DNA from: Devosia marina
Lineage (GTDB): Bacteria; Pseudomonadota; Alphaproteobacteria; Rhizobiales; Devosiaceae
DNA: 64,000 nucleotides
Reading direction: 5' to 3'
Assembly (NCBI RefSeq): GCF_009758415.1
Contig: NZ_WQRF01000003.1
Span: 1-64,000, forward strand
Position numbers and translations under genes: made by a program. Under the pieces are notes generated by a model. That model saw only the letters and a list, made by a program, of their open reading frames with translations, was not told the origin of the DNA and ran no database searches. This document shows, piece after piece, positions 18,392-44,576 of this stretch (position 1 is its first letter; each line of letters begins with the position of its first letter).

Positions 18392-19321
18392 TCAATTGCT
18401 GGGCAAGAATGGCCTGCCGAGACAGGCCGGTGCATTGGAAGAAGCATCACGCCGGATCGATATCAGCACCAGCACGATGACGGTGGCAAGATAGGGCATG
18501 GCAGCCCAGAGCTCGGCCGGTATGGCGGACAGTGGCCCACCGCCAGCCTTGGCATAAAGCTCCATGGTCATCACCAGTCCGAACAGATAGGCGCCGGCCA
18601 GCAGCCGGAACGGCTTCCAGCTGGCAAACACAACCAGCGCCACGGCAATCCAGCCCCGCCCGGCAGTCATGCGCTCCGCCCATTGCGGGGTCAGAAGCAA
18701 GGGGAAACAAGCCCCGGCAATTCCAGCCATGGCGCCCCCAAAGGCTACTGCACCATAGCGCACCGCGACCACGGAATAGCCGATGGAATGGGCAGAATGG
18801 TCATTCTCCCCCACCGCACGCAGGATCAGGCCAGCGCGCGACTTCTTCAGAAACCACCAGACCGCAAAGACCATGGCGAGCGAAAAGTAGACAAGTGCGG
18901 AATAGCCAAAGAGCACCCGCCAGATCGGATGCGTCGCCAGTTCCGAAGGAAATAGTGGCCCTAGCAACGTCACCGGCCGAGCGGAATAGCCCTGTCCCGC
19001 CAAAGCGGAAAACCCTGTGCCGAAGATGGTCAGGGCGAGACCCGTTGCGGTCTGGTTAGCCGAGAGGCTGAGCGTGAGAAAGGCAAAGATCATGGACGTT
19101 GCCAGTCCAGCTCCGGCCGCAAGCAGGATAGCCAGGTAGTGGTTGCCGGTAGTGAAAACCACGACGAAGCCGGTAATGGCACCCACCAGCATCATGCCCT
19201 CGACGCCCAGGTTAAGCACGCCGGATTTTTCGACAACAAGTTCGCCCAGGGCCGCAATCAGGATCGGGGTTGATGCGCCGACCACGGTGATAATGATGGC
19301 AATGGTCAATTCCAGAGTCAT
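18392..19321 (-). CDS. ABC transporter permease, BMP/purine type (second permease)
   Basis: 309-aa inner-membrane permease of the branched-chain/nucleoside group, with around eight helices. The family stretch GELVVEKSGVLNLGVEGMML sits near residues 25-44, and RAVGENDHSAHSIGY is the cytoplasmic loop that contacts the ATPase. The start overlaps the upstream permease stop by 4 bp. The pair forms the channel for the purine binding protein encoded just downstream. Confidence 0.85.
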   Translation of the reverse strand: MTLELTIAIIITVVGASTPILIAALGELVVEKSGVLNLGVEGMMLVGAITGFVVVFTTGNHYLAILLAAGAGLATSMIFAFLTLSLSANQTATGLALTIFGTGFSALAGQGYSARPVTLLGPLFPSELATHPIWRVLFGYSALVYFSLAMVFAVWWFLKKSRAGLILRAVGENDHSAHSIGYSVVAVRYGAVAFGGAMAGIAGACFPLLLTPQWAERMTAGRGWIAVALVVFASWKPFRLLAGAYLFGLVMTMELYAKAGGGPLSAIPAELWAAMPYLATVIVLVLISIRRDASSNAPACLGRPFLPSN

Positions 19322-40789: not shown

Positions 40790-41581
40790 TCAGATGCCGC
40801 CATACCAGTCATAGCCATTGTCCTCCCAATAGCCACCCTTGCCGCCGCCAAATGGGGATAAGTCGTCCACCAACTCGATGGTATGCAGATACTTCGGCTG
40901 CTTGTAGCCCAGCGCCCGCTCGATCCTCAGGCGAACCGGGGCACCATTGCTCACCGGCAAGACCGCGTCGTTAAGCCCATAAGACAGGATGGTCTGTGGA
41001 TGATAGGCATCCACTAGATCCGAGCTGGTATAGTACAGAATGTCCCCGGACAGACCGCGCTGAATGTTGTCGTAGCAGTGATAGACGCAATAGCGCGCAG
41101 CCGGCTTCACTCCGGCCTGGTCGAGGACCGGCCCCAAGGGTGTTCCGGTCCACTTGGCAATGCAGCTCCAGCCTTCGACACAATCGTGCCGGGTGATCTG
41201 CGTGCGCGCCGGCATATTGCGCAACTCGGCAAGTGAGAAGCTGATCTCACGATCCACCATGCCCTTGATGGTCAGCCGGTAAGGCTCGAAATTGGCCTGC
41301 TTGAGGAACAAGTATTCTGCGGTTGTGGGATCAGTCGAGCCATTGGGGCGCTGTCCCTGGCGGATTTCGCTTTCCGCATATTCGCGTGCCAGCACCTGAT
41401 CGCCGATCAACGCACGCTGCGCCCGATAGGTCAGCACATTGGCCTGCTCCAACGCCTGGCGCACCGGATTGCCGCGCTGCCCGAGAAAGTCGAACTGGCT
41501 GCAGCCCGACATGGCCAGGGATGACCCCAGCGCCACCGAACCCACCAAAAACTTGCGGCGATTGACGATCAGGCGGCTCAT
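40790..41581 (-). CDS. molybdopterin-dependent oxidoreductase, MsrP/YedY-like
   Basis: 263-aa periplasmic enzyme of the sulfite-oxidase fold. The N-terminus has a Tat signal, VNRRKFLVGSVALG, and a nearby SGC. The molybdenum-liganding Cys is in RHDCVEGWSCIAKWTG near residues 131-146. LSYGLNDAVLPVSNGAPVRLRIE is the family C-terminal stretch. MsrP-type enzymes repair oxidised methionine in envelope proteins, but this one pairs with a large cytochrome b rather than classical YedZ, so I leave the substrate open. Overlaps the cytochrome gene by 4 bp. Confidence 0.8.
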   Translation of the reverse strand: MSRLIVNRRKFLVGSVALGSSLAMSGCSQFDFLGQRGNPVRQALEQANVLTYRAQRALIGDQVLAREYAESEIRQGQRPNGSTDPTTAEYLFLKQANFEPYRLTIKGMVDREISFSLAELRNMPARTQITRHDCVEGWSCIAKWTGTPLGPVLDQAGVKPAARYCVYHCYDNIQRGLSGDILYYTSSDLVDAYHPQTILSYGLNDAVLPVSNGAPVRLRIERALGYKQPKYLHTIELVDDLSPFGGGKGGYWEDNGYDWYGGI

Positions 41582-42426
41582 GGCTTGTCTCCCTGTTCGC
41601 TGGGCGTGCCTGGGCTGGTGCGATACCAGCCGGTAATCATGGAGCGGAGCTCGTTAAGCGGTCCTGCCAGCAGCACCATGATGATGTGAACGACAAAGAA
41701 CAGCACCAGCAGCACCATCACAACGAAATGGATAGTGCGCGCGGTCTGCCGCCCCCCGAAAATATCCAGCAGCCAGGGCCAGGCAGCATCCATGCCAGGG
41801 CTCATCGTCAAACCCGTCAGAATGATCAGCGGAAACAGAACAAAGAAGACCGCGAAATAGCTCAGCTTTTGTAGCGGCGAATAGGTCCGGCCGTGGTGCA
41901 GACGCAGCCGCGCATGGTCCAGGGCATCCCGTGGCAATCCCGTAAAGTCACGGCCCTTGGGCAGGATATCCCGCCGCAAATGGCCATTGATGAAACTGGC
42001 CAGAAACCAGATGAACAAGGCCGCGACAAAAATCCAGCCGAAGAAGAAATGCACGACCCGCCCTGTCGCGAGGTCGCGGAAGGACGGGATCGTTACCGCG
42101 CCGGGAAAGCCGACAAAGCTTGGATTGGCGGCCGGTCCGCTCATGCCTAGAACGCCGGTCGTGTCGAAGGTCTGCCCGAACACTGTGGTTTGCCCGCGTG
42201 GCCCATCTGGCGTGTTGACAGCACCAATGCTGAGCACTGAATTGTCGAATTCGAAGCCGGATTGTTTGCCGATATAAAGGGTGGGGTGGGCATTGAAGAT
42301 CTGAAGACCGGAGAGAAGCAGGAAGAACAGGCATATCGCCCAGACCCAATGGGTCAGCCGCGTCCAGATGGACTGGCGATAGATCAGCGGACCTTTTGCG
42401 GGCGGCAGGCCCTCGTCTTCTGTCAT
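41578..42426 (-). CDS. cytochrome b561-type membrane subunit for the molybdoenzyme
   Basis: 282 aa of the thiosulfate-reductase/formate-dehydrogenase cytochrome b group. Four helices carry haem-liganding His candidates: SIWTRLTHWVWAICLFFLLLSG, GRVVHFFFGWIFVAALFIWF, LSYFAVFFVLFPLIILTGLTMS and RTIHFVVMVLLVLFFVVHIIMV. A long periplasmic loop of about 70 residues lies between helices 1 and 2. ATG 42426 has GAGGGGAA upstream. It supplies quinol electrons to the Tat-exported partner. The transcript probably starts near 42551 from the sigma-F-like promoter, giving a leader of about 125 nt. Confidence 0.82.
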   Translation of the reverse strand: MTEDEGLPPAKGPLIYRQSIWTRLTHWVWAICLFFLLLSGLQIFNAHPTLYIGKQSGFEFDNSVLSIGAVNTPDGPRGQTTVFGQTFDTTGVLGMSGPAANPSFVGFPGAVTIPSFRDLATGRVVHFFFGWIFVAALFIWFLASFINGHLRRDILPKGRDFTGLPRDALDHARLRLHHGRTYSPLQKLSYFAVFFVLFPLIILTGLTMSPGMDAAWPWLLDIFGGRQTARTIHFVVMVLLVLFFVVHIIMVLLAGPLNELRSMITGWYRTSPGTPSEQGDKP

Positions 42427-42557
42427 GTTTTCCCCTCGGCGGATAAAATTCATTCCTGCCTTCAGTAACGGTAGCGCATCGGGCAGAGGGTCGCCATCAC
42501 GTCGATGTTATTGTGGTCAGCACAGTATTCTAGGCCCGCACTGCCGACATCAACATA

Positions 42558-42583
42558 TTCGCGTCAGCCTCATACCGGGTTAC
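42558..42583 (-). promoter_or_regulatory. ECF sigma promoter GTAACC-N16-CGAA for the cytochrome b/molybdoenzyme operon
   Basis: On the minus strand GTAACC (42583-42578), a 16-nt spacer, and CGAA (42561-42558). The same two boxes at the same spacing occur in the opposite direction 47-72 bp away upstream of the sigma gene. As I recall, this is the published promoter pattern of Caulobacter sigma-F. Confidence 0.8.
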
Positions 42584-42629
42584 CTGTTCACGCAGCCGTG
42601 TTCGACGCTCGCTTTTTTGTTCCCGCTGT

Positions 42630-42655
42630 GTAACCTCCTGAACAGGCGGCGCGAA
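42630..42655 (+). promoter_or_regulatory. ECF sigma promoter GTAACC-N16-CGAA for the sigma/anti-sigma operon
   Basis: GTAACC (42630-42635), 16-nt spacer, CGAA (42652-42655). The sigma-factor ATG lies at 42666, only 10 nt past the -10 box. Transcription would begin a few bases before the start codon and the GGAG at 42657-42660 would mostly fall outside the message. Confidence 0.8.
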
Positions 42656-42665
42656 TGGAGAACCA

Positions 42666-43217
42666 ATGCAGGCGGATGCGACCGAGAAACGGATGCGCGA
42701 GTTGATGCTCGCCGCACTCGACGGCGACGCAGCCGCCTATCGCCGGCTGCTGGCCGAACTCACGCGCTATTTGCGACCCTGGTTCGCAAGACGCCTGAGC
42801 CCGTCCCATGCTTCGCACGCGGAGGATCTGGTGCAGGAAACTTTACTAGCCTTGCACACCAAACGCTCGACCTACGACCGCAGCCGGCCCTTCACCGCCT
42901 GGCTGCACGCTGTTGCACATCACAAGTTTGTCGACCATGTCCGTCGCCACGCGATCCGTCCCACCGTCCACCTTGATGACGACGCGCCTATATTTGCGTT
43001 CGACGACAGCGCCCACGCTGCCGACCGCCGAGATGTCGATGCGGTGCTGACCGAGGTGCCCGAACGAACCGCCGATCTCATCCGCCAGACCCGTATCGAG
43101 GGTGCCAGCATCGCCGAGGCGGCCGCTCGCCACGGCATGAGTGAAACTGCTGCAAAGGTCTCGATCCACCGAGGCCTCAAATCCCTGATGAACAGGTTTG
43201 CGGGAGGCAGCAAATGA
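42666..43217 (+). CDS. sigF: ECF RNA polymerase sigma factor, sigma-F/NrsF-associated type
   Basis: 183 aa. Region 2 is RRLSPSHASHAEDLVQETLLALHTKRSTYDRSRPFTAWLHAVAHHKFVDHVRRH (residues about 43-96), and region 4 is the ERTADLIRQTRIEGASIAEAAARHGMSETAAKVSIHRGLKSLM helix-turn-helix. It overlaps the anti-sigma gene by 4 bp. A GTAACC-N16-CGAA promoter just upstream points to autoregulation, and a twin promoter controls the divergent molybdoenzyme operon. In Caulobacter the related sigma-F answers chromate and cadmium and also controls a YedY-like gene, from memory; the inducer here is unknown. Confidence 0.85.
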   Translation: MQADATEKRMRELMLAALDGDAAAYRRLLAELTRYLRPWFARRLSPSHASHAEDLVQETLLALHTKRSTYDRSRPFTAWLHAVAHHKFVDHVRRHAIRPTVHLDDDAPIFAFDDSAHAADRRDVDAVLTEVPERTADLIRQTRIEGASIAEAAARHGMSETAAKVSIHRGLKSLMNRFAGGSK

Positions 43218-43852
43218 CCAATGAACTGATCGACCGCCTGACCTCCGACCTCAAGCCGATACCGTTGCGGGCGCTGGAGAAGCGAATTTGGCTGGCTCTG
43301 GCCATCGGGCTGTTCGCCACTATCCTCGTCGGCCCGTTGGTGCTCGACCTCTTGGTCGGCCGCCCCTTTGGCGGCGCCTGGGGCAACTCCATGTTCTGGA
43401 GCAAGCTGGGCTATACCATGGGCTTGGGCAGTCTTGGGCTGATCGCCGTGCCGGCTTTGTCCCGTCCCGACCAGTATCGCATCTGGCCGCTGCTGCTTGC
43501 CAGTGCGCTGGCTGTGCTGGCCCTGATTGTCGGCACCTTGGGCTGGATGCAGTCGGATTGGGCCATGCCCGTACTGATGGGCGGCACTGCCATGGTGTGC
43601 CCTTGGCTGATTATCGTCACGTCGGCGCCGTTGCTGGCGGTACTACTCAGCGTGATGCGCCGCTTTGCGCCCTCTTCGCCAACAATGGCGGGCTTGGCCG
43701 CAGGCCTGCTGTCGGGGGGCTTTGGTGCAGCGACCTATGCGTTCTATTGCGGCGAAACCAGCATGATGTTCATGGCAACCTGGTATTCTCTGGGCGTGGC
43801 CCTGACCGCGCTCCTGGGCGCGATCATCGGGCGATACCTGCTCCGCTGGTAG
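43214..43852 (+). CDS. nrsF: membrane anti-sigma factor, DUF1109/NrsF family
   Basis: 212 aa with a short cytoplasmic N-terminus (LIDRLTSDLKPIP, the family start) and six hydrophobic helices. Two cysteines stand out: Cys129 in AMVCPWL and Cys179 in FYCGET. They match the spacing of the pair reported to be needed for NrsF signalling in Caulobacter, as far as I recall (about 50 residues apart). It should hold the sigma factor at the membrane until stress changes the thiol state. Co-translated with the sigma gene. Confidence 0.85.
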   Translation: MTNELIDRLTSDLKPIPLRALEKRIWLALAIGLFATILVGPLVLDLLVGRPFGGAWGNSMFWSKLGYTMGLGSLGLIAVPALSRPDQYRIWPLLLASALAVLALIVGTLGWMQSDWAMPVLMGGTAMVCPWLIIVTSAPLLAVLLSVMRRFAPSSPTMAGLAAGLLSGGFGAATYAFYCGETSMMFMATWYSLGVALTALLGAIIGRYLLRW

Positions 43853-43861
43853 CGGGCGGGA

Positions 43862-44512
43862 CTACTCGTCCCGCGCTGCCCAGTTAATGCCACGGCGCAT
43901 GATGGTAGCGAAGTTGGGGTTCTCGAACTCCTTGGCCGAATGCCCCAAGGTCGAGTGGAAGACTCGTCCCTGACCGTATCGGTGTTTCCACACCACGGGT
44001 ACTACGGCACCCTCGATCCAGGGCGCATGCTCACCACTAAACGTTGTGGTTGCCAGCACATCGATCATCGGATCGACATGCATGTAATACTGCTCGGACG
44101 TATAGGGGAAGCTGGACTTGATCCCTGCCATGATCGGATCATCTGGCTTGGTTACATCGACGGTATAATCGAGAATGTCGCCAGGATGCGCCACCCACTG
44201 CCCACCGATCATGAACTGGTAGACGACTGACTCGCGAAAGGCGTCGGACATTCCACCGTGATGACCGGCGAGACCGACGCCACCGCGTACGGCATTGGCG
44301 AGGTTCTCGGCCTCCTCCTTCTCGATCTTGCTCATCGTGTAGATCGGAATGATCAGCGACAGATCAGCGATCGAAGGATCGGCGAAGGCGCTGGTCTCGG
44401 TCGCAGTCCGCACCGAGTAGCCGTCCTCATGCAGCCAGCGGCGATAGATGGTGGCGCATTCCTCCGGGTCGTGACCTTCCCAGCCACCATAGACAATCAA
44501 AGCACTGCGCAT
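43862..44512 (-). CDS. ThuA-like domain protein (stand-alone)
   Basis: 216-aa glutamine-amidotransferase-like fold: ALIVYGGWEGHDPEECATIYRRWL at the start, GVGLAGHHGGMSDAFRESVVYQFMIGGQWVAHPG, EQYYMHVDPMIDVLATTTF, VVPVVWKHRYGQGRVFHSTLGHS near the end. ATG 44512 has AGGGG 8 nt upstream; ATG 44518 is too close to it. It is a distant relative of the ThuA encoded at 49.8-50.6 kb and not in the trehalose operon. Substrate unknown. Convergent with nrsF. Confidence 0.78.
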   Translation of the reverse strand: MRSALIVYGGWEGHDPEECATIYRRWLHEDGYSVRTATETSAFADPSIADLSLIIPIYTMSKIEKEEAENLANAVRGGVGLAGHHGGMSDAFRESVVYQFMIGGQWVAHPGDILDYTVDVTKPDDPIMAGIKSSFPYTSEQYYMHVDPMIDVLATTTFSGEHAPWIEGAVVPVVWKHRYGQGRVFHSTLGHSAKEFENPNFATIMRRGINWAARDE

Positions 44513-44576
44513 GAGCATTTCCCCTGCAAATCAAACGGCGCGGAGAATACCCGACTGGGCTGGTATTGAAAGCCCA

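Follow-up and report, generated by a model that had tools for sequence, protein, structure and literature searches.

Twin SigF-type promoters in Devosia marina: a probable NrsF-gated ECF16 circuit for its own operon, a cytochrome/molybdoenzyme pair and dispersed msr genes

Described SigF/NrsF systems and the Devosia locus

Several systems that combine a SigF-type sigma factor with a membrane anti-sigma factor have been described. In Brucella melitensis, BcrS/AbcS consists of an ECF16 sigma factor and an NrsF-family anti-sigma factor with cysteines C129 and C179; divergent GTAACC-N16-CGAA sequences at 18520-18545 (minus strand) and 18584-18609 (plus strand) are placed between the sigma operon and the QP redox operon, the system is described as induced by hypochlorous acid, and BcrQP is called homologous to MsrQ/MsrP (PMC8315932). 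EcfF of Bradyrhizobium japonicum, a Group 16 ECF sigma factor paired with OsrA, is reported to have three peptide methionine-sulfoxide reductase genes in its regulon, with C179 of OsrA required for the response to peroxide and C129 for interaction (PMC3420878). The motif reported for Caulobacter crescentus SigF/NrsF is GTAACC-N16-CGAA, and its regulon includes the YedY-type Oxidored_molyb gene CC2748 (PMC3511200), while in Azospira suillum PS SigF/NrsF is described as controlling the YedY1 methionine-sulfoxide reductase, the methionine-rich MrpX also being present (PMC5748585, PMC4623255).

We analysed a 64-kb stretch of the D. marina genome (hereafter the window), in which a comparable set of genes lies on either side of a 98-bp promoter stretch. 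The features of the locus are:

40790..41581, minus strand: YedY-like molybdoenzyme, 263 aa (PF00174, Oxidored_molyb, 104.7 bits)
41578..42426, minus strand: b561-type cytochrome, 282 aa (PF01292, Ni_hydr_CYTB, 76.5 bits, cut-off 30.1)
42463..42500, minus strand: element GTGATGG(C/T)GA..CTACCGT, found by inspection just upstream of the cytochrome gene
42558..42583, minus strand: SigF-type promoter of the cytochrome b / molybdoenzyme operon
42630..42655, plus strand: SigF-type promoter of sigF-nrsF
42666..43217, plus strand: ECF sigma factor, SigF / ECF16-like, 183 aa (Pfam sigma regions 2 and 4)
43214..43852, plus strand: NrsF-family anti-sigma factor, 212 aa (PF06532, 167.2 bits, cut-off 26.8; its start overlaps the sigF stop)
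43862..44518, minus strand: ThuA-family gene flanking the sigF-nrsF cassette (PF06283, 157.8 bits)

As the first-pass annotation had proposed, two opposed promoters with identical boxes and 16-nt spacers are present. The minus-strand site (42558-42583) is GTAACC-CGGTATGAGGCTGACG-CGAA and the plus-strand site (42630-42655) is GTAACC-TCCTGAACAGGCGGCG-CGAA, both exact, and they stand back to back with a gap of 46 bases, directed away from each other. The resemblance to the Caulobacter sigma-F motif, likewise proposed there, holds against the published sigma-F / ECF16 consensus (PMC3511200, PMC3420878). The sigF ATG begins only 10 bases past the CGAA end of the plus-strand site, a distance shared by 32 of the 48 loci that carry both sites (see below) and one that leaves little or no leader, so that the sigF message may be leaderless or may be translated from a later ATG.

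The sigma factor matches sigma regions 2 (PF04542) and 4 (PF08281), and only these, above cut-off (52.2 and 33.4 bits), and the window's sigF is the only match in its own genome at E <= 1e-8. The proposal that an NrsF anti-sigma factor stands beside it held up with the PF06532 match, even though the protein misses the NCBIfam NrsF equivalog model (123.9 bits vs 300). Its only cysteines, 129 and 179, carry the same numbers as those of Bradyrhizobium OsrA and Brucella AbcS; among 64 aligned NrsF proteins C179 is present in all 64 and C129 in 55. The locus thus has the traits of the ECF16 (SigF)/NrsF module, namely sigma regions 2 and 4, an adjacent NrsF / DUF1109 protein, C129 with C179, and an exact promoter before sigF, from which autoregulation of sigF is predicted. 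By analogy with the described anti-sigma factors, we infer that the window's NrsF would sense thiol oxidation and release the sigma factor. The ThuA-family gene adjoins the cytochrome gene directly in sigF-less relatives and is regarded as lying outside the circuit.

The window is like Brucella bcrS/bcrXQP in its twin layout, its ECF16 sigma and NrsF-family proteins and its C129/C179 pair, but the Brucella operon is headed by the methionine-rich BcrX, whereas the window's operon has no such gene, and the D. marina genome, unlike the Brucella description, also has sites before two msrB genes. The Bradyrhizobium EcfF motif differs, being GTAAC(g,a)-N14-15-(c,t)CG(t,a), and the EcfF targets in Table 3 of that report include no molybdoenzyme, unlike the window (PMC3420878). 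In Caulobacter, CC2748 is placed elsewhere in the genome rather than beside sigF, the other SigF targets given are DUF2282/DUF692/DUF2063/DoxX genes, and msrA homologues are reported as unchanged (PMC3511200). Azospira and the window share SigF/NrsF and a YedY-type enzyme, but the window lacks MrpX. The twin layout (Brucella), Msr control (Bradyrhizobium) and YedY control (Caulobacter, Azospira) are already described, and Devosia is a further case of each. Here the operon comes in a form that lacks the peptide, and the regulon can be followed from site to site with unusual clarity; among the papers covered by a full-text search, none combined Devosia, ECF and methionine sulfoxide.

Conservation of the promoter pair and dispersed sites before msr genes

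The bare motif is unremarkable and occurs at chance level genome-wide. A scan of the D. marina genome (3.86 Mb, 31 contigs) for GTAACC-N16-CGAA, which the first-pass annotation had suggested as a way of listing the regulon, did place exact sites before two msrB genes but gave no enrichment over the control (9 exact sites vs 7 for the pattern read backwards). With the sixth base left free (GTAAC-N17-CGAA) there are 13 sites vs 25 reversed, most of the 13 without an evident target, and in the 64-kb window 4 sites are found vs 1.97 expected when one mismatch is allowed, the only exact ones being the twin pair.

The pairing of the sites is far above chance, and the arrangement of the twin promoters is real and conserved. 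An NrsF match is present in 75 of 136 family genomes, and 70 loci were fetched from the matches listed, 30 from the search and 40 by place (matches outside these loci include G118, G120, G038, G061 and G081). Fifty-five of the fetched loci, together with the window, carry both sigF and the cytochrome gene and form a 56-locus set; the remaining 15, most of them bufferin-type or truncated, were left out. The relatives that have the same locus and a name are mostly Devosia. GTAAC-N17-CGA is found sigF-ward in 52 of the 56 loci and cytochrome-ward in 51, while other spacers from 10 to 25 occur in 0-4 loci and three scrambled box pairs in 0-3. The motif is accordingly not missing from orthologous intergenic regions: strict sites stand on both sides in 48/56, and the remaining 8 have, wherever a strict site is lacking, a near version in which CGAA reads CGTA, GTAAC reads ATAAC or the spacer is one base short. 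The block at 42463-42500 is also present in several relatives, with or without a methionine-rich gene, and in the sigF-less G029; a conserved block at this position before the cytochrome gene recalls the report that CC2748 of Caulobacter is only partly SigF-dependent (PMC3511200).

In 41 of the 56 loci, an additional gene separates the left-hand promoter from the cytochrome gene; its product is exported, rich in methionine and ~90-130 residues long, and has two conserved cysteines. This gene is absent at the locus in the window and 14 others, and a 21-row model that was positive in 5/5 control genomes found no match at E <= 0.01 anywhere in the D. marina genome. Peptide presence switches at least 5 times on a quickly built tree of sigF, NrsF and the cytochrome. 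The peptide is like MrpX/BcrX in position and composition, the likeness being to their published description rather than to their sequence. Since the peptide is missing at 15 of 56 loci, both the twin promoters and the redox pair are retained even where no dedicated scavenger is encoded, and the peptide-less lineages raise the question of whether the enzyme pair requires the peptide for its function.

In D. marina and four near relatives, the exact pattern recurs before the same genes: before a signal-peptide MsrB in all five genomes, before a second MsrB in D. marina, G024 and G079, and before MsrA in G024, G072, G077 and G079. The two strict msrB sites of D. marina lie on other contigs or places than the twin pair, and its msrA retains only a decayed site, GTAACC-N16-TGTA. 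The early description of the locus as a self-contained regulon is not supported, given these exact sites before two msrB genes outside the locus and a second, orphan nrsF elsewhere in the genome.

We compared 15 NrsF-positive with 15 NrsF-negative Devosia genomes, which were chosen rather than drawn at random, counting a strict site as GTAAC-N17-CGAA within 330 bases upstream. From 20 same-genus NrsF-negative genomes listed, five were left out (four <90% complete and one at 90%), and 41 further NrsF-negative genomes lie outside those listed. A strict site precedes the secreted msrB1 in 14/15 NrsF-positive vs 0/15 NrsF-negative genomes, msrB2 in 12/15 vs 0/15, and msrA in 8/14 vs 0/15 (G047 being without an msrA match), with Fisher values of 2e-7, 1e-5 and 7e-4 respectively that ignore kinship. 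A tree built from the msr proteins of these 30 genomes requires at least 7 switches between presence and absence of NrsF, so the association of site and NrsF is not a matter of one split. For the msrB1 site, agreement with NrsF is seen on average in 4.7 of 5 supported independent pairs and disagreement in 0, the corresponding values being 3.7 and 0 for msrB2 and 1.4 and 0 for msrA, although a sign test on only 5 supported pairs cannot reach 0.05. Strict msr sites in NrsF-positive but not NrsF-negative genomes point to a regulon that would be dispersed and centred on methionine-sulfoxide repair.

For the comparison of msrB2 upstream regions, the inter-box sequence served as the search anchor, a MAFFT alignment being uninformative. 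In the NrsF-negative genomes the inter-box TATAT is kept in 10/15 and both boxes are intact in 0/15, and in G044 GTAAC is kept where CGAA is now CAAA. This looks like erosion of the sites after loss of their reader, and the presence or absence of the cassette among close species offers a natural experiment on promoter-site erosion after sigma loss.

Sites of the same kind were also observed before other genes. An exact SigF-type site precedes the same exported, probably solute-binding protein in D. marina (L003) and G079 (L098), with a like site in G024 (L116), and in G072 and G077 (L100, L105) an exact site lies 16 bases before the gene for a 75-residue protein with a CHNC motif. Two further D. 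marina sites, L091 and L008, have GGTCACAATGATGCGAA in common; that at L091 falls within a reading frame that resembles another sigma factor in its later part, and the two sites perhaps represent a different promoter class.

The proposed circuit and its alternatives

The reading that we favour, at a probability of roughly three in four, is that the twin SigF promoters belong to an NrsF-gated ECF16 circuit serving its own operon, the cytochrome/molybdoenzyme pair and dispersed msr genes. The 98-bp stretch would be a divergent promoter pair recognised by the product of the adjacent gene, the ECF16-type sigma factor. NrsF, a membrane protein with six helices, would hold this factor while the cell is at rest, and periplasmic oxidation, probably at Cys179 to judge from Bradyrhizobium OsrA, would free it. 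Free sigma would then transcribe its own operon and, in the opposite direction, the genes for cytochrome b561 and the exported YedY-like molybdoenzyme. Electrons from quinol would reach the molybdoenzyme through the cytochrome, and the group that the enzyme reduces in periplasmic proteins would be methionine sulfoxide or a similar sulfoxide. Comparative sequence evidence suggests that the same sigma factor would also serve the secreted msrB and the second msrB here, and msrA in several relatives. The window's lineage would run this circuit with no methionine-rich peptide, whereas in most relatives such a peptide is encoded by the first gene of the operon. What began as a look-alike promoter pair thereby becomes a testable regulon, in which periplasmic and cytoplasmic methionine-sulfoxide repair would come under one membrane-sensed sigma factor.

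The enzymes themselves were assigned as follows. The cytochrome and molybdoenzyme genes overlap by 4 bases, and the cytochrome, apart from PF01292 and a weak match to DUF4405, matches no further Pfam family; it is the presumed electron donor to the molybdoenzyme. The latter has a twin-arginine signal (R8 R9), a lipobox-like G26 C27 and C134 in HDCVEGW, all invariant in 22/22 aligned orthologues. C134, which we take to be the candidate Mo-ligand cysteine, aligns with the cysteine context of 1xdq, the nearest solved chain, in a CVE(A/G)WS-type context. The structure prediction for this protein (mean pLDDT 46.4, pTM 0.48) was judged unusable. The best model is MsrP and the best structure 1xdq, but the MsrP equivalog cut-off is missed by a wide margin (80.3 bits vs 207), so that methionine sulfoxide is a candidate substrate. 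MsrQ belongs to a family other than b561, and the partner here matches the b561 family PF01292 rather than an MsrQ type. The molybdoenzyme would therefore be best described as YedY-like and at best MsrP-like in action, not as a member of MsrP: in the original description of a cytochrome b gene with an MsrP/YedY-like enzyme, the cytochrome and YedY-like assignments stand while the MsrP assignment does not.

For Caulobacter SigF, a response to both dichromate and cadmium is reported, and the YedY-type enzyme under its control has been interpreted as a sulfite oxidase (PMC3511200). On that model the window's promoters would be SigF-dependent, with the molybdoenzyme handling sulfite and the circuit answering heavy-metal or sulfite stress, as for CC2748, and weak matches of the enzyme to the SorA (57.5 bits) and SoxC (45.6 bits) models fit such a role. 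We consider it unlikely, since the enzyme matches the MsrP model and 1xdq best, rather than sulfite dehydrogenases, the co-regulated genes are msrB and msrA, and the partner is a b561-type membrane cytochrome with no cytochrome c partner encoded alongside. Of the methionine- or sulfite-related repair first envisaged for the locus, the methionine theme is the part that stands, with msrB and msrA sites in NrsF-positive genomes only, and sulfite is less likely.

The orphan nrsF of D. marina bears on a different possibility, in which the window's SigF would chiefly control metal-binding peptides of the bufferin type, with msr and molybdoenzyme genes as side targets. This sigma-less nrsF (L122:6576-7217, minus strand, contig C10) is divergent from a DUF2282 bufferin gene that has GTAAC-N17-CGA upstream, a layout like that described for the Caulobacter CC3254-CC3257 operon (PMC3511200). 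The bufferin site, however, is one of 2 matches with up to 1 mismatch vs 1.55 expected by chance, the adjacent MNIO gene is interrupted by an in-frame stop, and bufferin-type loci elsewhere have their own distinct sigma factor at 31-41% identity, so that a primary role in bufferin control appears a long shot. In the related bufferin-type loci, the sigma gene lies between nrsF and the bufferin gene. The MNIO gene that follows the bufferin gene (L122:7762-8631, plus strand) consists of two same-frame pieces split by the stop, either a decaying operon or an assembly error. Finally, that the twin boxes are a chance occurrence or belong to another sigma factor is hardly credible, the lack of enrichment of exact sites over the reversed control being outweighed by a spacer and position fixed in 56 loci and by the absence of sites before msr genes in genomes without NrsF.

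An alternative state of the locus in genomes without NrsF

The molybdoenzyme is kept beside thuA in 15/15 NrsF-negative genomes, at 74-87% identity, and the existence of the enzyme operon is therefore independent of this sigma factor. In these 15 genomes no sigF is closer than 28-31% identity, and the cytochrome gene is never preceded by a SigF site. In 12 of the 15 (13/17 when G030 and G033 are added), a different element is found there, 46-110 bases from the cytochrome gene:

L253-L261, L264, L265, L267 and L269, upstream of the cytochrome gene: GAAAC-N17-CGTA in place of the SigF site

This element occurs in 0/56 sigF-bearing loci, and no other spacer from 12 to 22 was found. Its longer form, TGAAAC-N17-CGTAT, has 12 matches in 8 genomes and none in D. 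marina; 7 of the 12 are at the cytochrome operon, to which the element is nearly confined in the genomes searched.

These observations suggest, tentatively and at somewhat less than even odds, that the Devosia locus exists in two interchangeable states, with repeated gains and losses of the cassette while the enzymes stay. In the first state, the sigF-nrsF cassette between thuA and the cytochrome gene would rule a dispersed Msr regulon through GTAAC-N17-CGAA. In the second, both the cassette and the SigF sites of the msr genes would be gone and GAAAC-N17-CGTA, with identical geometry, would stand on the enzyme operon alone, as if the operon had been handed to another ECF-type sigma factor. Gain or loss would have occurred several times for the cassette and, independently of it, for the methionine-rich partner. 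GAAAC-N17-CGTA may instead be a weak housekeeping promoter.

Three other explanations were considered and set aside. The element does not appear to be the autoregulated promoter of a recognisable sigma factor, as 7/12 matches are the cytochrome operon (gene context being taken from those 7), and it does not replace SigF sites regulon-wide, being found in only 1/45 NrsF-negative and 0/44 NrsF-positive msr regions. Recombination of the whole locus is not favoured, as a tree of the cytochrome and molybdoenzyme groups sigF-less genomes with different sigF-bearing neighbours; this is a quick tree with many weak forks, on which 8 changes are counted. In G030, which has a bufferin-type sigma factor, a SigF site is present before the cytochrome gene.
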